NCBI GenBank assembly: GCA_013152945.1
Contig: JAADFL010000124.1
Location: forward strand, 1-19,931
DNA length: 19,931 nucleotides
Direction: 5' to 3'
Source of the DNA: Deltaproteobacteria bacterium
Lineage (GTDB): Bacteria > Myxococcota_A > JAADFL01
In this document: positions 4,095 through 19,206 of the stretch, piece by piece
How positions within the stretch are numbered: position 1 is the first letter of the stretch
How the letters are laid out: each line of letters opens with the position of its first letter
Position numbers and translations under genes: made by a program
The notes under the pieces: model-generated
What the model saw: only the letters and a program-made list of their open reading frames with translations
The model's database searches: none
Told to the model about the DNA's origin: nothing

Positions 4095-5330
4095 CTAATA
4101 GTACCGGTCGGTTCTCCAGTACCTGACAGGGCCTTCAGGAACATCCGGGGGCAGTGTCTTCTTTCCTGCCAGGTATTCCATGGCCTTTTCAAGGCCGTCC
4201 AGTGTCAGCTCGAACATGGGGAACAGCTCGGCTATCCTGATCACGGTAGGATGTCTCCACAAGTGAAGCCGCATGGGATTCAACCACACCGTGCGTTCGA
4301 AATGATCGTTCAACTGCTCGAGCCGGTAAATCCCGGGCTGCTCGTTCCGATGGTAGTAATCTATGGCTCCGTACCTGGACAGCAGCTCGGACGGCGCCAT
4401 GCTGGCGTCGCCTACCATGACCAGCCTGTAGGAACCGTCCAGTGTTTTCAGCATTTGTTCCACATCCACGCCCTTCCACCGGCTCATGTCTTCGAAAACC
4501 TGCTCGTACACGCAATTATGGAAATAATACGCCTTGAAATCCTTGAAATGAGAGGCCTTGCTCGCTGCCGAGAAAAGCCTTTCCACCAGCCTCGCATAGG
4601 GCTCCATGGACCCGCCTGCATCCATGAGCAAGAGCAGTTTCACGCTGGCCACCCGTTCCGGTTTCTCTATGACACAGATATCCCCTGCGTTCCTGGCAGT
4701 CTGGATAATCGTCTCATCAAGGTCCACCTCCATTCTTGCGCCTTCCCTTGCAAACCTGCGGAGCTTTCTCAAAGCTGTTCCTATTTGCCTCGTATCCAGC
4801 ACGCGGTCGGAACGATAGTTTCGAAACGCCCGCCTGGCAGCAATCTGGGCAGCCATTCCGCCCGTGCCATGTCCCCCTACCCGGAGTCCTCCCGGGTGTA
4901 CGCCGGAATGTCCGAAAGGTGAGGTTCCTCCTGTTCCTATCCACTTGTTGCCGCCGTCGTGGCGCTCGTCCTGTTCTTTAAGCCTTTGTTCGAATTGTTT
5001 GCGAAGCTCTTCCAGGTCCACGGCCTGCCTGAACCTCTCAAGGTCCTTTTCACCAAGGCCGGCCGGCAATACAGGGTTTTCGAGCCAGCTCCATATCTCT
5101 TCCCTGATATCAAGCGGAGTCTCTATGCCTTTGAAAACAGACAACCATGCCTGGTCGAATGCGTCGTACAGGGTCTCGGACTTCACACACAGGGCCCGTG
5201 CAAGGTGGTACATTCTTACAAGGTCTGAAAACGCAAGTCCCATTACAAGGGCTTCCATGAAGGAAAGCCACTCGAGCGGTGTGACCGGAACACCCCTGCT
5301 CCTAAGTTCGTAGAAGAAATCCAGAAACAT
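4095..5330 (-). CDS. CoxE-like VWA-domain protein, partner of MoxR ATPase
   Basis: A 411-residue protein of the VWA CoxE-like family. Residues 1-120 are the helical N-terminal part, followed by a Gly-rich, basic linker (~125-160, including GGNKWIGTGGTSPFG and HPGGLRVGGHG). The VWA domain occupies ~225-390 with the metal-site motif DAGGS (237-241), FHNCVYE (269-275), VGDASMAP (306-313) and WLNP (349-352). Gly at the third DAGGS position, instead of the usual Ser, is as I recall a feature of this subfamily, not a defect. Family members act with a MoxR AAA+ ATPase as a chaperone-like pair that remodels or inserts metal into client proteins. The MoxR gene lies just upstream, its stop nine bases before this start, which argues for coupling. 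The client is not apparent from the neighbours. Confidence 0.9.
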   Translation of the reverse strand: MFLDFFYELRSRGVPVTPLEWLSFMEALVMGLAFSDLVRMYHLARALCVKSETLYDAFDQAWLSVFKGIETPLDIREEIWSWLENPVLPAGLGEKDLERFRQAVDLEELRKQFEQRLKEQDERHDGGNKWIGTGGTSPFGHSGVHPGGLRVGGHGTGGMAAQIAARRAFRNYRSDRVLDTRQIGTALRKLRRFAREGARMEVDLDETIIQTARNAGDICVIEKPERVASVKLLLLMDAGGSMEPYARLVERLFSAASKASHFKDFKAYYFHNCVYEQVFEDMSRWKGVDVEQMLKTLDGSYRLVMVGDASMAPSELLSRYGAIDYYHRNEQPGIYRLEQLNDHFERTVWLNPMRLHLWRHPTVIRIAELFPMFELTLDGLEKAMEYLAGKKTLPPDVPEGPVRYWRTDRYY

Positions 5331-5339
5331 TTCTTCAGA

Positions 5340-6173
5340 TCACCAGTGATTTGATCGCATGGCGCGATTCACCTTTTCGAGGTCGTCTTCGTGCTTTACC
5401 AGGGTTCCAAGGAACGGCAGTTCCTTTCGAAGCACCTTTTCACTCACGCCTCCTGCAAGCAACGCGGCTATCCAGTCTATCAATTCGGATGTACTCGGTC
5501 TCTTTCTCATCGAGTCAATGCCCCGCAACCAGTAGAACCTCTCCAGGCATTGCCCGGCAAGTTTCTTTTCTATATCAGGGTGATGGACCCTCACAATTCT
5601 CTCCATGAGATCCTTGCCCGGAAACTCTATGAAGTGGAACACGCAACGGCGCAGAAAAGCGTCCGGAAGCTCCTTTTCATTGTTCGAGGTTATCACCACG
5701 ATGGGCCTGTTCTTTGCCTTAAAGGTTTCGCCGGTTTCAGGAATGTAGAAGCTCATCTCATCGAGTTCACGGAGCAGGTCATTTGGAAACTCGAGGTCTG
5801 CCTTGTCGACTTCGTCAATCAGCAACACGGTTCTCTCGTCAGCGGTCAGGGCCTTACCCAGGGGACCAAGTTCGATGTACTGCCTGATATCCCTTACGTC
5901 TTTGTCGCCGAACCTCGAGTCGTACAACCTCGCGACCGCATCGTATACGTACAGGCCGTCGGTCGCCTTGGTGGTCGATTTCACGTGCCATGTCAAAAGA
6001 GGCATGGACAACCCCTTGGCGATACTGTACGCAAGCAGTGTCTTTCCCGTTCCTGGTTCGCCCTTGACCAGCAGAGGCCTTTCCAGCGCAGCCGCCACAT
6101 TAACGGCATCACAAAGAGCCGGTGAGGCTATGTAATCCCTGGTTCCCTTGAAGATAAAGAAATTCTTTGCCAT
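5340..6173 (-). CDS. MoxR-family AAA+ ATPase
   Basis: A 277-residue cytoplasmic ATPase. The start at 6173 is supported by AGGAGG (6180-6185) six bases upstream; the frame opens at 6194 but without a good signal. Walker A is GEPGTGKT (38-45), Walker B is VLLIDEVD (116-123), sensor 1 is TSNNEKELP (162-170), arginine-finger candidates are Arg175-Arg176, and a sensor 2 helix follows KRPSTSELIDW (224-234). This is the usual short MoxR layout. MoxR proteins form hexamers that use ATP to remodel partners together with VWA proteins, and the next gene encodes such a protein. First gene of a two-gene operon. Confidence 0.93.
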   Translation of the reverse strand: MAKNFFIFKGTRDYIASPALCDAVNVAAALERPLLVKGEPGTGKTLLAYSIAKGLSMPLLTWHVKSTTKATDGLYVYDAVARLYDSRFGDKDVRDIRQYIELGPLGKALTADERTVLLIDEVDKADLEFPNDLLRELDEMSFYIPETGETFKAKNRPIVVITSNNEKELPDAFLRRCVFHFIEFPGKDLMERIVRVHHPDIEKKLAGQCLERFYWLRGIDSMRKRPSTSELIDWIAALLAGGVSEKVLRKELPFLGTLVKHEDDLEKVNRAMRSNHW

Positions 6174-6198
6174 ATCCTGCCTCCTAAAATGCACGTGT

Positions 6199-11099: not shown

Positions 11100-11828
11100 T
11101 CAGGGTAAAGACTGGTCCCGTTCCTGGTTCCATGCCACCCAATCATCCTTGTCTTCATCTGCGGTAAAGGCCCTGGGCTTGGAGATCTCTCCCTTTGCCG
11201 ACACCCTCACCTCTTGCATGGCCTTTGCCACGTATTCTTCCCACTGTTTCCTGGAAATCTCGTGCGGACCGGCTACTTCCACTCTCTTGCCACCCTTTGT
11301 CTTCCGGGCATATACCGGCGCATTGGAAACGGCAACGACACCACTGTACACCCGTACAAGGGTGGATGTATCCTTTGCCACATCCACTCTGAACACAGTG
11401 CCCCTCACACCTGCAACCGCATTCCGCGTCTTTACCTCGAACGAAGAATCATTCCCGAACAAGCTCGTAACCCTGGCCCATGCCTTGCCTGCAACCAGCT
11501 TGGCCTTGTATACCTTCTTGTTCTTTTTCTTGCTGTATACCAGGTTCTCCAGGTGGATTATTGTGTCTGCGGCCAGTCGTAACACGCTCTTGTCGGCAAG
11601 CTTGAGTTCCAACCTCGTGTCCGCTGCTGTCTTGACCCACCACTTGTCATGTACAGCTTGACCCTTCTTCAATTTCTTCCATGGGCCTTTCTTGGTTTTT
11701 GCCCAATGAGCGGCGCCGGACAGGAAGCTGACCCTTGCCTTCGCCTTGGCGGCATTCGCATCGAATCCCGATACCATCATGAAGGCGGCCAGCAATACAG
11801 CCAAAATCAAACCAGGTTTTCTTGTCAT
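11100..11828 (-). CDS. Secreted FecR-domain protein
   Basis: A 242-residue protein. The start at 11828 puts the GGGGAG signal nine bases upstream; an ATG two codons earlier (11834) would leave only three, and the frame opens at 11885. Residues 1-26 are a signal peptide ending Ala-Asn-Ala. The FecR domain covers ~30-170: a basic beta-rich region (GAAHWAKTKKGPWKKLKKG), LRLAADTIIHLE (83-94), and the signature VKTRNAVAGVRGTVFRVDV (132-150). Here the domain is free in the periplasm, with no anti-sigma N-terminal helix bundle and no adjacent sigma factor or TonB receptor. This is the stand-alone FecR type common in deltaproteobacterial envelope operons, not the iron-dicitrate regulator. Lys-rich throughout; an acidic segment lies near the end. 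Confidence 0.85.
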   Translation of the reverse strand: MTRKPGLILAVLLAAFMMVSGFDANAAKAKARVSFLSGAAHWAKTKKGPWKKLKKGQAVHDKWWVKTAADTRLELKLADKSVLRLAADTIIHLENLVYSKKKNKKVYKAKLVAGKAWARVTSLFGNDSSFEVKTRNAVAGVRGTVFRVDVAKDTSTLVRVYSGVVAVSNAPVYARKTKGGKRVEVAGPHEISRKQWEEYVAKAMQEVRVSAKGEISKPRAFTADEDKDDWVAWNQERDQSLP

Positions 11829-11902
11829 GTTCATCTTCTCCCCTTGAACCATCCGGTTCCAACCAAGTTCCGTACGATACGACATGCCATCGCAAGTATT
11901 GC

Positions 11903-13090
11903 TTATGGCTTGAGCTGCACCTTGACCAGGTTGGCCTCCACCTTCAATACCTTAACCGAAAACTTGCCGAAATTTTTAGTGGACAGTTCCTTTGCAAAAT
12001 GGCTGGCAGTGCCTGCGAGCCTCACATCCAACTCGGCTACACCGCCGTCAACGCGCCTCTCGACAACGCTCTTAACGCCGCGCACTATTTCCCCGAGCTT
12101 GCTCTTGAACTTCAGCAAGAGGTTGTAGTCGCCAACACCGGCCACAAAAAGCCTTATTCTCTTGGCTGTGGCTACGTCCTTCTGCCATTTATCCAGGATC
12201 TTCGTTGCAAGGTCCTCGGCCGCCTTTTGGGCCACTTTTTTCAAGGCTTCCGTGCCGGCTGTCGTCGGATCGATGTGTACCGCAGCCTGGTGCTTCGTGG
12301 AAGTAGCTATTACATCGCCGTTGCTGGTATTTACCGCCCGTACACTGATGTTGGCCTGGGCACTGTTCATGGATGTCCCCCTGATGGTTCCTGCATTCTT
12401 TGCAATCGCCTGGCCCACGATAACCACCTGTGCATCCGTCAGGTTGGCAATCTCCTTGGCCTGCTGATTGTTGGGTGTGGCCGAGATACTGAATGCCTTG
12501 TTCACCTTGATCTTACCTGCCAGAGTCTGGTGATCCACGAATTCGAATCCCTTCTTCTGCAAGACCTCGATCATGGTGTTTTCCACGATATTCATGGAAG
12601 ATTGGGCCGCTGATGCACCCCACCAGTACGACATATACTCCTGGCCGATGTTCTGTTCTGACACGAGGATCATTATCCTTGGATTCTCCATCTGCTGGAG
12701 TAGAATCCCAATGGCCTCCAACTGGTTCGTCAATTTTCCGGTTCCCACCGTGGCCTGGACCTTCACGGTCACCACGTTCCCGTCTTTCTTGGAAGACAGG
12801 ACCTTGTAGTTGGAAATGAATCCCTTGGCCTTGGTGTAAATCTTGTCCTCCAGGAGCTGGTAGTTCTGCACGACCGACTCGGAAGACACCTGGGTTCCCA
12901 CCACTTGCTCCACAGCTTTGCGAAGCGCATCCTCGATGGCCTTGTCTCTGGCCATTGCCGCGTCACCGTTGATTATAACGCCTTGGCCCTCGACCACCAC
13001 GGTCTTGTCCTGACCTGCCTGGGCCTGTCCGACAAAGGCAAAGGAAAAGGTCATTGCCGCAAGGGCGCTTAAAAAAACCGACTTTTTCAT
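11903..13090 (-). CDS. FlgT-like periplasmic protein (flagellar assembly protein T, N-terminal domain type)
   Basis: A 395-residue exported protein. The start at 13090 has AGGAGC seven bases upstream; the frame opens at 13126. Signal peptide 1-25 ends Ala-Gln-Ala. Residues ~30-115 match the FlgT N-terminal domain: VVVEGQGVIINGDAAMARDKA, then DALRKAVEQVVGTQV, QNYQLLEDKIYTKAKGFISNYKVL and a VVTVKVQATV strand. The middle (~135-290) resembles the TolB-N/CsgG-like region (PRIMILVSEQNIGQEY, a Gly/Ala/Thr-rich set of strands). The last ~90 residues form a KxKSKLGEI...V...RRVDGG module that ends with alternating strands. In Vibrio, FlgT builds the H-ring of the flagellar basal body. No flagellar gene is present here, so an outer-membrane or periplasmic assembly role is more general than 'flagellar'. 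Confidence 0.85.
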   Translation of the reverse strand: MKKSVFLSALAAMTFSFAFVGQAQAGQDKTVVVEGQGVIINGDAAMARDKAIEDALRKAVEQVVGTQVSSESVVQNYQLLEDKIYTKAKGFISNYKVLSSKKDGNVVTVKVQATVGTGKLTNQLEAIGILLQQMENPRIMILVSEQNIGQEYMSYWWGASAAQSSMNIVENTMIEVLQKKGFEFVDHQTLAGKIKVNKAFSISATPNNQQAKEIANLTDAQVVIVGQAIAKNAGTIRGTSMNSAQANISVRAVNTSNGDVIATSTKHQAAVHIDPTTAGTEALKKVAQKAAEDLATKILDKWQKDVATAKRIRLFVAGVGDYNLLLKFKSKLGEIVRGVKSVVERRVDGGVAELDVRLAGTASHFAKELSTKNFGKFSVKVLKVEANLVKVQLKP

Positions 13091-13132
13091 AATAGAAGCT
13101 CCTTTTTGAAGTCTCCCTGATTTCATATCGAA

Positions 13133-13942
13133 CTACTCCGCATCCGTGACGATCATTACGCGACCGTAACCAAGGAAGCTCAAGTCTTGCTTCCTTGCCT
13201 TGAGCTTTTTTACATCTTTTGAACTCAGGATGATATCGCATCCCCCCGGTTTCTTTGCAGCTTTTGCCTTTATGATAAGCGGGTTGCCTGAAACACGAGG
13301 GTTGTTCTCGGCCTGGTCCAGGTCTCTTGCATACCCGGCTATTCCGTTTGCTTCGATCCCTTCGGGTGTAACCACGGAAGGTCCGTATACTTCATTACCC
13401 TTTTCATCAAGGATTCTTGGCGCCAATGCAGGTGCAATCTTGAGCCCCCTTGCATCTACTATGAGCCCTGTATGCATCTTGGACGCAATCTTTTTCTTGG
13501 CGCCGGATTTTGGCGGAAGCAGGGCTTTTGTAAGCGGCCCGTCGAGCCTCATCCTGACAATGACGTCCACGCCGCCGTCACTGAAATATTTTGTATCCAA
13601 TACCTCAAAATTCTTGACGATGCCCTCAACACGGGTCTTGATCTTCCTGTCCTTCATCTTGTCGCCCACAGAGGATCCGGAATCCACCTTTACCCCTTTC
13701 AGGGCCTCGATGATGTTCCTCCATGCATCGATCTTGGCAGCCCTCTCGGCCCCCAGCCTGGCTGCAGCGACATTGGCTGCTTTAAGATTAGGGGCAGCCG
13801 TCCCCCTGGCAATTATCACCTTGTTCGCCCAGTCGATCTTGACCTTTCCGTGACCCGGGTCGTTCTGGGCCGAGGTACAAGGCGAATAAGCAAGGGACAT
13901 AATTGCCATGCCCAAGGCAGTGTAAGATAAAAAACTTCTCAT
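13133..13942 (-). CDS. LPP20-family exported protein
   Basis: A 269-residue protein. AGGAGG lies about nine bases before the ATG at 13942. Signal peptide residues 1-25 end Thr-Ser-Ala; Cys22 is not in a proper lipobox, so signal peptidase I cleavage is likelier than lipidation despite the family name. The LPP20 core is clear: KVIIARGTAAPN, then an Ala-rich helix (AAARLGAERAAKIDAWRNI) with the family's 'R..A..DA.R.L' pattern, a VEGIVKNFEVLDTKYFSDGG segment and a VDVIVRMRLDGPL strand. The C-terminal part, with GNPLIIKA and GGCDIILSSKDVKKL, resembles the companion domain often found behind LPP20. First gene of the six-gene envelope operon. It is followed after 42 bases by the FlgT-like gene, whose N-terminal domain has a related design. 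Confidence 0.82.
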   Translation of the reverse strand: MRSFLSYTALGMAIMSLAYSPCTSAQNDPGHGKVKIDWANKVIIARGTAAPNLKAANVAAARLGAERAAKIDAWRNIIEALKGVKVDSGSSVGDKMKDRKIKTRVEGIVKNFEVLDTKYFSDGGVDVIVRMRLDGPLTKALLPPKSGAKKKIASKMHTGLIVDARGLKIAPALAPRILDEKGNEVYGPSVVTPEGIEANGIAGYARDLDQAENNPRVSGNPLIIKAKAAKKPGGCDIILSSKDVKKLKARKQDLSFLGYGRVMIVTDAE

Positions 13943-14147: not shown

Positions 14148-17100
14148 TTATGTATTTCCTGGCTCCTTGTCCAGGCTCCATGTGCCCTCGCCTAATATTT
14201 CTTCTATTTCCTTGAATAATTCGTCGCCCGGATGTACCCGAACATCTTCGGGCAGTTCCACTGTAACCCTTGTCTGGTCTTCCGTGCCGACTTCAAGCCT
14301 GACCAGGGCGCTTCCAGGATGATTGATGAAAATTCGACGTAATCTTTTCAAAATGTGCGGATCCGCCTTTAACCCGGCTACTTCAACCTTCAAGACACGG
14401 AAATCTCCGTGGCTCCGGTGTTCCACGATTCGGGCATCCTGCAGACACGCAGCTCCAGGCCCCAGTTTACCCTGAATCGTCACCATGTTTTCAGCACAAG
14501 ATGGCAAGGGATCAATAATATCAGCCTCGAGCAGGCCTGTTCCATCCCATATCACTAATGATTCAGTGTCCGCAGCTTTTCCAAGGCCGGATTTTCTGCT
14601 GATAACCTCGCCCGAACATGTGACTTCGCTGCCGGGTTCCATGAACTGCGCCTCGGCAATGTTCATCGTCTCTTTTCCACAGGTATCGAGAATATGTGCC
14701 AAGTCAAATCCCATTGACTCGATCCACCTGTTGCCGGCTAGTTCAACCGGTACTGCATGTCTGGACTCTGTTGGGAAAAGATCGGTTTGGTGACCTTCCC
14801 TGGAAACATTCCTGCCTGTCCAGGACAAGAGCATGGACAACATTTCTTCCAGGCTTTCAATGAGTTCTTGTTTCCCACTCTTGCTTCCACTCTTGCTTCC
14901 CAATATTTCACATGCACCTGCAAGCACAAGATTCTTGAGGGCATCACGGGCGACGATGGGCGGTCCTATCCTTTCAAGGAGATCCTGAAATGATGAAAAA
15001 ACGCCCCTTTGCTCTCTCTCCTGAACCAGCAGACTACCTGCCTGTTCACCGACCCTTTTTACCTGTGCCAATCCAAGTCTCAACCTGCCCTTGTCCAACC
15101 TGGGCTGAAGCCCGCTGAAATTTACGTCGGGACCAAGAATTGTAAGCCCATCTGCTACAGCTTCGGACAAGATACGCTCCACTTCACTTGCGGAAGTCCC
15201 CATAATAGATAGCAAAGCAGCAGTGAATTCAGGCCTATAACTCGCCTTTACTCCTGCAATATGCATAGCCAATTCAGCCCGTGAAAGAGCCTCGGCCCTG
15301 GTCAGGCCCTGCTTTGGAAAATACATGAAGCTCCTGAAAATATCCTCGGCCACACCGGAATCGATCTTCCTTTTTTTCAGGCCATCAATAAAATTTTTTT
15401 TCTGCGAGACGATCCCGGCTGTATTCCCATTCTTGATTGCCGAAAGGAGCGCATCTGCCCTGGGCCTTGAAAAACCGGCGATGGTAGTCGCCAGCTCCAG
15501 GACCTGGTCCCTGAATAACACCAGGCCGAACGTCTCGGCAAGCAATTCGTCGACATCCTTACCGAGCTGCGGCACAATCTCCTGGCCCGTAGCACGCCTC
15601 GCATACACCTTCGGCACTTCTCCCTGGTTCACGAATTCATGCCTATTGAGTGCTATCAAGGTCGCAACCTCTTGCAACGAAGAAGGAGCGAGTTCCTTGA
15701 GGCTCATTGTTCCACGCCCCTGGTCCAGGGAAGGAATTCCAATCGTGCTTCCCCTGGCAATCAGCTTGATACCCGCGGGATTTTCAGGCCCGAAAGTGGA
15801 TTCGGGGTCATGCCCCCTGAAATCCCTTACCTGGTCCATGGTAATGGTAAGCACGTCCAAAGCTCTCGAAACACCCGGCTCGAATGAAAATGCTCCAAGG
15901 TCGCCCAGGTACCTCGAGTCAACCATTGCCTCGAACAATCCGTCGTCTCTTTTTTTAAGCGGCATGGTTTCCACCAACGGCCTGTTTGAAAAAGCTACTG
16001 CAACTGCCGCTTCATCAAAGCCTTTTGCCAATCCGACGAGTACCTGGGCTGTCTCTTCGAACCGGCCCGGCTCCAACTCCCCTTCCATCGACAATTCTTT
16101 CAAAGCCTGCCTCTGGTACAACACCTGAATGGACGGAACAAGGCAAGCCTTGACTTCGTGAAAGTTCCCCTCGATCCCACCTAACTTGTAAACCATGGCC
16201 TTAAGCAAATCCTGTTTTTTTTCAGAGCCTATTGTCACGTGGAGCCTGGCCTTCCTCCCGACAAAAGAAACCCGATGCAGCACGGGATCAACGTCGGTCA
16301 AGCCCATTGCAAAGGCCATCACGCTGCCGGCAACTTCACTATCGTATAGGGAAATGTGTGCGCCCACTGATTCCGCTGCATTGCCTGCCAAGTAACACAG
16401 CAGGAAACGGTATGCATCATCGCCCAACTCGTCCAATTCGGCATTTAGCCTCCTGAAATAGACCTCGGGCTGGGATTCGGCCGGAATCTTTTGCTCCAGG
16501 TTGTCCCATGCTATCTTTTTCAGTAAGTCGTGGTTGCTTACTTTTTTTTCAGGCGTGGTTTCGACCTGTTTTCCCGGTTCGAACTCCACACCCGAAAAGT
16601 TGAATACTTGCCTTGAAGCCGGCGGCTCCCATGTTTTACACATACCGGCAACCAACATGGTATTGTCAAGGGCATCCTTGAAATTGGAAAACCGTTCTTG
16701 AAGGTTGTTTCTCGAACACAGCGAAAAATCGCCGTCATAATTATACAGACTTTGCAGATCTTCTCTGGATCTCCATAGAGCGCGGATAGCCCTCTTGGAC
16801 ACCCGGTCATGCCACCTGCAATCATTGGTTGCAACCAATTTCAGGTCGAGTTCATTCGCTATTCGTGCAAGATCCGATACCTGTTTTCCATCCCCGGGCC
16901 TCAAGTGATCTTGTACTTCCACGAAGAGCCTGTCTCCTTTGAACACCTCCTTCAGTCGCACTATCCTATCCAGGTAATCATGAGCCGGATTTTCGGACAG
17001 GCCGGTCCCGACAGATCCATTATGGCAGCCCATTAAAGCTATCAGGACTTTTGAAAACTCCTCAATCCACTCCAACCTGCAACATTGCAAACGCGGTTTA

Positions 17101-17516
17101 TTGCTCTTTTCCCCGATCGCAGGCTGTTCAGTGGTTTGTTTGAAGCCATTGTCGATATTTTGCGATTCGTTCTCTTCCACCGCCTGCTCATTTGCTGCCA
17201 TCGAAAGCAGTTCGCACAATGCAGAGTACCCGGCTCTCCCGTCAGCGAGCAGGATCAGGTGATACGATTCAAGGCCATTGTCCGGACCGACAAGCACCTC
17301 GCTGCCTATGATCGGTTTTACCCCTGCCTTCAAGGCCGCGGCCCTAAACCTGGGCGCACCTGCTACCGACATCCGGTCTGTCAGGGCTACTGCAGGTTGC
17401 CTATGCCCGGCGGCAGCCTGAACAAGTGTTTCAACGGACAATGCGCTGGACAATGTGCTTCTGAAAAAAGTGTAATCCGAATGAACATGCAGATGAACGA
17501 ATCTCTCGTGCCTCAA
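14148..17516 (-). CDS. DnaE-like C-family DNA polymerase III alpha homologue with degenerate active site (predicted non-catalytic)
   Basis: A 1122-residue protein; E. coli alpha is 1160. The TTG start at 17516 is supported by GGGGG a few bases upstream, and the PHP domain begins at once. Domains: PHP (~1-240) with HLHVH (8-12) and GSE (71-73), but Arg48 replaces His in ALTDH and Arg234 replaces His in NDCHY; palm (~370-560); fingers and tandem HhH (~575-870); clamp peptide QTDLF (910-914); OB fold (~960-1030); C-terminal domain (~1036-1113). In the palm, GLTDVDP (405-411) is kept, but the PDFDVDF block aligns without gaps to A423-R-L-H-V-T-I429, so all three Asp are lost. The third catalytic Asp (in KFDFLG) aligns to Ser544. 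GRGSAAGS reads YDSEVAGS (391-398). The frame is intact, so this is a selected gene, not a decayed one. An acidic/polar insert lies at ~108-142 and a 12-bp slippage repeat encodes GSKSGSKSG. It lies 28 bases after guaA. Confidence 0.9.
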   Translation of the reverse strand: MRHERFVHLHVHSDYTFFRSTLSSALSVETLVQAAAGHRQPAVALTDRMSVAGAPRFRAAALKAGVKPIIGSEVLVGPDNGLESYHLILLADGRAGYSALCELLSMAANEQAVEENESQNIDNGFKQTTEQPAIGEKSNKPRLQCCRLEWIEEFSKVLIALMGCHNGSVGTGLSENPAHDYLDRIVRLKEVFKGDRLFVEVQDHLRPGDGKQVSDLARIANELDLKLVATNDCRWHDRVSKRAIRALWRSREDLQSLYNYDGDFSLCSRNNLQERFSNFKDALDNTMLVAGMCKTWEPPASRQVFNFSGVEFEPGKQVETTPEKKVSNHDLLKKIAWDNLEQKIPAESQPEVYFRRLNAELDELGDDAYRFLLCYLAGNAAESVGAHISLYDSEVAGSVMAFAMGLTDVDPVLHRVSFVGRKARLHVTIGSEKKQDLLKAMVYKLGGIEGNFHEVKACLVPSIQVLYQRQALKELSMEGELEPGRFEETAQVLVGLAKGFDEAAVAVAFSNRPLVETMPLKKRDDGLFEAMVDSRYLGDLGAFSFEPGVSRALDVLTITMDQVRDFRGHDPESTFGPENPAGIKLIARGSTIGIPSLDQGRGTMSLKELAPSSLQEVATLIALNRHEFVNQGEVPKVYARRATGQEIVPQLGKDVDELLAETFGLVLFRDQVLELATTIAGFSRPRADALLSAIKNGNTAGIVSQKKNFIDGLKKRKIDSGVAEDIFRSFMYFPKQGLTRAEALSRAELAMHIAGVKASYRPEFTAALLSIMGTSASEVERILSEAVADGLTILGPDVNFSGLQPRLDKGRLRLGLAQVKRVGEQAGSLLVQEREQRGVFSSFQDLLERIGPPIVARDALKNLVLAGACEILGSKSGSKSGKQELIESLEEMLSMLLSWTGRNVSREGHQTDLFPTESRHAVPVELAGNRWIESMGFDLAHILDTCGKETMNIAEAQFMEPGSEVTCSGEVISRKSGLGKAADTESLVIWDGTGLLEADIIDPLPSCAENMVTIQGKLGPGAACLQDARIVEHRSHGDFRVLKVEVAGLKADPHILKRLRRIFINHPGSALVRLEVGTEDQTRVTVELPEDVRVHPGDELFKEIEEILGEGTWSLDKEPGNT

Positions 17517-17544: not shown

Positions 17545-19095
17545 TCATTCCCACTCGATAGTAGCGGGAGGTTTGGAAGAGATGTCATACACTACACGGT
17601 TCACCCCCTCCACCTCATTGATGATTCGGTTTGATATACGCATGAGCAAGTCAGCCGGAAGGGGTGCCCAATCCGCGGTCATGCCGTCCATCGAGGTCAC
17701 AGCCCTGATGGCGACGGCGTTCTCATATGTCCTCTCGTCTCCCATCACACCCACTGATTTCACGGGTAGTAATACAGCAAAACATTGCCACAATTCCTCG
17801 TAAATGCCTGCTCCCCTCACTTCTTCTTCCACTATGACATCGGCATTCTGTAAAACCTTGACACGCTCCACCGTAACTTGGCCAAGTATACGCACTGCAA
17901 GTCCGGGACCTGGAAACGGGTGGCGATACAATATCCTTCTGGAGAGTCCGAGTTCAGCGCCCACGGCCCTGACTTCATCCTTGAAAAGTTCCCGCAAGGG
18001 CTCAACGAGCCTAAGATTCATGTTCTCGGGCAGGCCGCCGACATTGTGATGGCTCTTGATCTTGGCGCTGGGGCCTTTGAACGAAATGCTTTCTATCACA
18101 TCCGGATACAAGGTGCCCTGGGCGAGGTACTCGACGCCTTTCAATTTCGACGCCTCTTCCTCGAAAACCGCTATGAATTCTTTTCCGATTACCCTTCTCT
18201 TTTCCTCCGGATCATCAACGCCTCCGAGCTTTGAAAGAAATCGCTCCCGTGCATCCACGGCCTTCAGATTAATCTTGTAATGGTCTCTGAAGAGCCTGAT
18301 CACACCCTCGGCCTCGCCCTTTCGAAGCACGCCGTTGTCAACGAATATACAGGTCAGTTTGTCACCCACAGCCCTGTGCACAAGTACGGCTGTGACCGAC
18401 GAATCCACTCCACCGGACAGGCCGCAGATGATCCCCTTGTCTCCAACCTTTTGTCGCACATCCCGGATTGTCCTCTCCACAAAGCTGTGGGTTGTCCACG
18501 TAGGCCTTACGCCGCATATCCTGAATAGAAAATTGGAAAGGATTTCTTCGCCCCTTGGAGTATGTACTACCTCGGGATGAAACTGCACACCAAACAAGTT
18601 ACGCTCACTATCCGCCATGGCTGCGCAAGGCGAATTTACACTCCTTGCGATGGCTCCGAATCCTTCGGGCGGCTTGGCGACCCTGTCGCCATGGCTCATC
18701 CACACGGGAATCTCTTCTTTTCTCTTGAAACCGTGGAATAATTCCGAGCCGCCGATTTCAAGCACGGCCCGGCCGTATTCCCTCCTATTGCTCTTTTCCA
18801 CTTCCCCGCCGAGCAACAACGCCATGAGCTGCATTCCATAACATATGCCCAATACGGGAACACCGTATTCGAACAGGCCGGTGTCTATTTTCGGTGCACC
18901 CTCATCGTGAACACTCGACGGCCCCCCGGAAAGAATTATTCCCCTTGGTTTCCAGGAACGAATATCTTCCATGCTCATGTCATACGGATGAATCTCGCAA
19001 TATACTCTTTGTTCCCGGATCCTTCGGGCTATCAGCATGGTATATTGGGAACCGAAATCCAGTATGAGAATCCTGCTTTCGTCTGTTTCGCTCAT
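17545..19095 (-). CDS. guaA: GMP synthase (glutamine-hydrolysing)
   Basis: A 516-residue cytoplasmic enzyme that converts XMP to GMP with ATP and glutamine. The start at 19095 has AGGAGA about five bases upstream and yields the normal length; the frame opens at 19179 but those 28 residues are not family-like. The glutaminase domain carries GICYG with catalytic Cys85 and QFHPE with His173/Glu175. The ATP pyrophosphatase P-loop is SGGVDSS (227-233). The C-terminal dimerisation domain contains [12 protein letters not shown] (391-402) and ends in the invariant KPPATIEWE. All catalytic residues are present. The DnaE-like gene follows after 28 bases and is probably co-transcribed. Confidence 0.98.
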
Positions 19096-19206
19096 CTCGT
19101 CTCCTGTATTTTGTCTCCCCCATTTTTCTACCGCAACAAGACGGAATATGACATTAACAACATCATGTCCTGCAATCAACCGTATAACCGGATTACCGGA
19201 TTGGCC

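Follow-up and report, generated by a model that had tools for sequence, protein, structure and literature searches.

A DnaE1-type paralogue that has probably lost DNA synthesis occupies the guaA-dnaE1 locus of a deltaproteobacterial draft genome

Results

A dnaE-like gene directly after guaA

The window analysed here, 19,931 nucleotides long, makes up the whole of contig C124 in the draft genome of an uncultured Myxococcota-like bacterium (4.84 Mb, 218 contigs, 94% complete, 0.5% contamination). Judged by DnaE1, the named genomes closest to it are MAGs of Myxococcales and Deltaproteobacteria, with at most 53% identity. All window coordinates given below are on the minus strand. An intact open reading frame of 1122 amino acids (14148..17516) confirms the full-length DnaE homologue described in an earlier note on this DNA, and we refer to it as pseudo-DnaE. 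The frame opens with a TTG codon 28 bp past guaA (17545..19179), the sole GMP synthase gene of the genome, and the purine-rich stretch GGGGGAAAG precedes this start. One Myxococcota clade, sampled at 22 loci, and Deltaproteobacterium RBG_16_54_11 carry guaA immediately upstream of a working dnaE1 on the same strand, with 8-121 bp between the two genes in all but two loci; pseudo-dnaE occupies the place that dnaE1 has there. The conserved pair, often only a few bases apart, recurs across loci L175-L207 and L071 of this large clade and RBG_16_54_11; an apparent GuaA-DnaE fusion in L190 and L178 was rejected, as the open frames merely overlap. Genomes G377 and G378 are among the nearest relatives of both the window GuaA and the genome's own DnaE1, and they carry no dnaE after guaA.

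The three genes that follow pseudo-dnaE (11100-13942) resemble LPP20, FlgT/FlgO and FecR, a set of surface or flagellar type with no relation to replication, and a VWA (CoxE-like) protein is paired with a MoxR-like AAA ATPase at 4095-6194. No genomic link from pseudo-dnaE to repair genes was found.

Pseudo-DnaE retains the domain order and the predicted fold of Pol III alpha

The N-terminal PHP domain (residues 8-204, 16905..17495; Pfam, 104 bits) keeps seven of its nine metal ligands by position. The two others are ligand histidines replaced by arginine, Arg48 (TDH to TDR, 17373..17375) and Arg234 (DCHY to DCRW, 16815..16817), and it is at these residues that the protein departs from the nine-residue motif of active PHP exonucleases, HHDHEH[C/H]DH (PMC12926913). 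The Pfam palm model PF07733 is matched in its first third alone (16263..16526, profile positions 2-90 of 260, 24 bits). The finger domain (residues 553-716, 15369..15860; PF17657, 78 bits) has lost most of its invariant residues, keeping 14 of 37. A tandem HhH DNA-binding domain (residues 790-874, 14895..15149; PF14579, HhH_6, 68 bits) precedes QTDLF (residues 910-914, 14775..14789), a predicted sliding-clamp-binding motif at the position of the DnaE clamp motif, where the genome's own DnaE1 has GQGNLF and the E. coli protein GQLDLF. AlphaFold confidence is low around this motif, with pLDDT under 50 for residues 901-948. An OB-fold region (residues 949-1032, 14421..14672) was recognised by matching the model to solved OB folds, and the OB/C-terminal part keeps three of seven invariant residues.

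Superposed on E. coli alpha (2hnh), the AlphaFold model gave a Z score of 37.0 and an rmsd of 5.0 Å over 838 aligned residues; as modelled, the alpha fold is retained, and the PHP, palm, finger and HhH folds of a C-family polymerase are all present. The protein nevertheless scores below the NCBIfam cut-offs for DnaE (364 of 1002 bits for NF004226, 348 of 434 for TIGR00594). It also falls below the cut-off of the error-prone DnaE2 model NF004225 (218 of 939 bits) and does not belong to DnaE2 (ImuC). Its length is of the DnaE1 type, the match to NF004226 reaching position 1140 of 1146. Nor is it an ImuB, having C-family domains only and a guaA neighbourhood.

The polymerase active site is dismantled

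Residues 390-446 (16179-16349) cover the critical part of the palm, where GLTDVDP is kept, as the earlier note had observed. The nucleotide motif GRGSxAGS is degenerate (residues 390-399, L-Y-D-S-E-V-A-G-S-V, 16320..16349), with Y391-D-S-E394 in place of GRGS. The position of PDFDVDF reads A423-R-L-H-V-T-I429 (16230..16250) and that of HAGG, also correctly noted as gone, reads A503-A-V-A506 (15999..16010), while S544-F-E546 (15879..15887) stands at the position of K553-F-D555. Some seven residues (FLNPERV-like) are absent before the PDFDVDF position, and the thumb is shortened.

The register across PDFDVDF deserves comment, as there is a rival. The A423-I429 register was given by ten of 16 alignment sets of one series (all of at most 20 sequences) and by all five further sets, some of which included DnaE2 and a second dead family described below; alignment A3 gave it as well. 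The PSSM score of the first segment favours it (-16 versus -38), and AlphaFold assigned residues 421-440 a pLDDT of 68-78 (pTM 0.59) under this register versus 26-35 (pTM 0.53) when the motif was skipped, a comparison limited by the different alignments on which the two models were conditioned. A MAFFT alignment with 84 DnaE proteins, and sets of 24-30 sequences, instead place PDFDVDF in a gap of about 37 residues. This deletion of the whole motif is disfavoured by the former alignment sets, the PSSM scores and the AlphaFold confidence. The replacements D401 to R424, D403 to H426 and D405 to T428 are therefore probable, not certain. The earlier note had the motif aligned gaplessly over A423-I429 and onwards through E-K-K...G446; the register is the favoured one, but it is gapless only inside the motif.

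Under either register the catalytic aspartates of PDFDVDF are absent from the sequence, as claimed. The third aspartate had been read as Ser544, an assignment that we reject: every alignment inspected pairs D555 with Glu546 (GLVKFDF/GAFSFEP), and Ser544 replaces Lys553. The catalytic metals are bound by D401, D403 and D555, which are reported to be absolutely conserved across the family (PMC3919608); here the places of these residues are taken by R424, H426 and E546, or the first two are deleted. A scan of the other reading frames for a hidden motif or compensating frame-shifts found none. Judged from its sequence, pseudo-DnaE is almost certainly dead as a polymerase.

The genome carries an ordinary DnaE1 and DnaE2

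Three C-family open reading frames are present in the genome, and the palm is lost solely in pseudo-DnaE. An ordinary DnaE1 of 1149 aa (contig C168; 1491 bits to NF004226) has intact PHP metal ligands, and an ordinary DnaE2 of 1072 aa lies on contig C161 (1200 bits to NF004225). A canonical dnaE thus exists elsewhere and, with metal, nucleotide and finger residues lost jointly in pseudo-DnaE, the earlier proposal of a pseudo-polymerase is well supported. Genes imuA and imuB lie together on contig C110 (L143:1863-4013), the ImuB being a dead Y-family polymerase; dnaE2 (L060:86-3304) is on a different contig, and the imuA-imuB/dnaE2 cassette looks split. A DinG-like helicase gene follows imuB on the other strand. 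No RNase_T/DnaQ-type exonuclease domain (PF00929) was found across the 94%-complete genome, and proofreading therefore presumably rests on the intact PHP domain of DnaE1.

In trees the branch of pseudo-DnaE measures 2.6-2.9 substitutions per site; its IQ-TREE placement carries no bootstrap values, and long-branch attraction to DnaE2 is expected. A position inside the crown clade of guaA-dnaE1 is not supported, since at 33 signature sites the protein shows three guaA-clade states versus 11 other states. The gene nonetheless probably descends from the dnaE1 of the guaA locus, as it immediately follows guaA, the site of a working dnaE1 in 22 sampled relatives.

Losses fall mainly on the polymerase core

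Invariant positions were defined as columns at least 97% identical in 84 DnaE proteins and were mapped through the A423-I429 register. Pseudo-DnaE keeps 27 of 104 such positions in the polymerase core versus 18 of 24 in the PHP and HhH/clamp regions (Fisher p=2e-5), PHP being its best kept domain with 13 of 16. No such skew is seen in the control, the genome's own DnaE2, which is remote from DnaE1 with its motif intact (74 of 104 and 14 of 24, respectively). The frame runs over 1122 codons with no stop in a protein that shares about 25% identity with any DnaE, while in a neutral simulation 0.02 substitutions per site produced about four stops and 0.5 produced 40. The base composition by codon position resembles that of the genome's other genes. 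Since so divergent a gene has kept its frame intact and its losses are non-random by domain, we infer that pseudo-dnaE is kept under selection, which lends the earlier note's statement to this effect an indirect support.

No orthologue came to light: nothing but ordinary DnaE at 25-32% identity was returned from 377 genomes of the phylum (in a sample where this genome is the only one of its class), the 22 nearest named MAGs, viral contigs, plasmids and phages, and a scan by pattern across 84,980 species, which picks up close relatives only.

A second dead DnaE family in the phylum

A palm-domain survey of 54 genomes of the phylum gave just over 100 C-family matches. Contig-end fragments aside, a broken palm was found in two genes: pseudo-DnaE and a protein of 949 aa (G002:C367; L215:5210-8059, minus strand) in which GRLRLDL replaces PDFDVDF and Glu replaces D555. 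In one Myxococcota family, four genomes out of six carry relatives of the L215 type at 49-70% identity, some of them split over contigs (loci L215, L221, L222, L223, L226 and L227), beside ordinary DnaE1 and DnaE2 genes. Their pairwise dN/dS is 0.24-0.53, with synonymous sites partly saturated. A conserved family with such values indicates that C-family pseudo-polymerases can be maintained. The L215 protein is not close to pseudo-DnaE, and the two losses therefore look independent. Another oddity is genome G029, which besides DnaE1 and DnaE2 has two extra short DnaE proteins of 871 and 811 aa (L216:1178-3793 and L217:2761-5196) with PDFDIDF intact that end after the fingers.

Discussion

What might a DnaE without an active site do? 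The best explanation of the sequence data is that pseudo-DnaE is a paralogue of the replicative Pol III alpha subunit, of the DnaE1 type, that would not synthesize DNA. Most likely, dnaE1 was duplicated or replaced: catalysis was lost from the copy left at the old guaA-dnaE1 locus, and the other DnaE1 would carry out replication. The retained PHP fold, HhH domain, QTDLF motif, OB fold and C-terminal region might allow pseudo-DnaE to dock on DNA and the sliding clamp. Bound there, it could serve as a non-synthetic adaptor or competitor, modulating access by DnaE1 or DnaE2. As a whole, we rate this account slightly better than an even bet. The clamp-bound regulatory role by itself is more tentative and somewhat doubtful: it is a first guess because the remaining parts serve DNA and clamp contact, and the clamp-binding motif that an ImuB-like adaptor would use is at hand as a prediction.

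Two other readings appear unlikely, and to a similar degree. In the first, a redundant old copy of dnaE1 is drifting towards death, its frame open by chance or through recent release. The very long branch would suit a dying gene, as would the want of an orthologue in the phylum (377 genomes), among the closest named MAGs and in the 84,980-species pattern scan. However, 1122 stop-free codons at about 25% identity sit poorly with the stops simulated under neutrality at even 0.02 substitutions per site, and such a gene would hardly show losses that are non-random by domain, a codon-position composition like that of the genome's other genes and a retained start signal and operon position. The second reading makes pseudo-DnaE a C-family counterpart of ImuB, an adaptor in a damage-induced assembly that would be either the translesion complex ImuA-ImuB-DnaE2 or a different one. 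The genome does possess imuA, imuB and dnaE2, the dead polymerase ImuB acts as a clamp-bound hub in mycobacteria (PMC10421592), and pseudo-DnaE has QTDLF; but a dead ImuB already holds that place, pseudo-dnaE lies with guaA and not in a cassette, and a by-eye comparison recognised no upstream motif common with imuA or dnaE2. The likeness to ImuB raised by the earlier note hence stands as a concept, with no tie to SOS or mutagenesis found.

Improbable, too, is a working PHP phosphoesterase or nuclease carried by a dead polymerase part. No domain is better kept than PHP and the genome yielded no DnaQ-type exonuclease, yet two of nine metal ligands are arginine (R48 and R234) and DnaE1, with its intact PHP ligands, could proofread alone. 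A working but unusual polymerase is less probable still. It would have a precedent in archaeal PolB2, filed as inactivated and then shown to be active (PMC8764526), and Glu546 keeps one acidic group; in PolB2, however, the missing residue is a single Asp other than the metal ligand, while pseudo-DnaE has lost D401, D403, D405, GRGS, K553 and HAGG all at once, along with most of the invariant residues of the fingers. Finally, an assembly or binning artefact, conceivable in a draft of 218 contigs where the window is one whole contig, is scarcely credible: contamination is unlikely because the single-copy guaA sits on this contig, GuaA and DnaE1 have common nearest relatives, there is no frame-shift signature or hidden motif, and the changes are scattered along the whole protein.

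If pseudo-DnaE is a dead DnaE1 paralogue, what are the implications? The Y family (ImuB) and the B family (Pol epsilon, poxvirus F12) provide known examples of dead polymerases with a new role, while the C family comprises the bacterial replicases. The C family has been surveyed (PMC3919608, PMC12926913), and our literature searches found no report of a C-family pseudo-polymerase. With two cases in a single phylum that look independent, the idea that bacteria use an alpha subunit at the clamp that does not copy DNA can be put to the test. We speculate, at somewhat less than even chances, that bacteria can keep dead C-family polymerases as non-synthetic subunits of the replisome or of repair, that this arose at least twice in Myxococcota, and that here the former dnaE1 of the guaA locus became a clamp-bound regulator while the other DnaE1 replicates.

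Pseudo-DnaE shares with DnaE1 the order PHP-palm-thumb-palm-fingers-HhH-clamp motif-OB-CTD, the fold (Z 37) and the guaA-dnaE1 locus of relatives. It differs in having lost Asp 401/403, GRGS, K553 and HAGG, in the change of D555 to Glu, and in its identity of about 25%, under the NCBIfam cut-offs. With ImuB, which works as a hub (PMC10421592), it has in common a polymerase fold stripped of catalytic residues and a clamp-binding motif; ImuB, however, belongs to an unrelated polymerase family and a damage-induced cassette, and this genome already has one. The inactivated B-family proteins, the C-terminal half of Pol epsilon and poxvirus F12, have likewise lost the polymerase site and kept the fold (PMC2669801, PMC4304020, PMC2527604), but in the B family rather than the C family, and archaeal PolB2, once so classed, proved active (PMC8764526); the loss in pseudo-DnaE is far wider than in PolB2. 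In the L215 family PDFDVDF is also changed (GRLRLDL), D555 is also Glu and GRGS is also lost, though its 949-aa protein ends after the OB region, shows no QxxLF that we could see and is not close to pseudo-DnaE.
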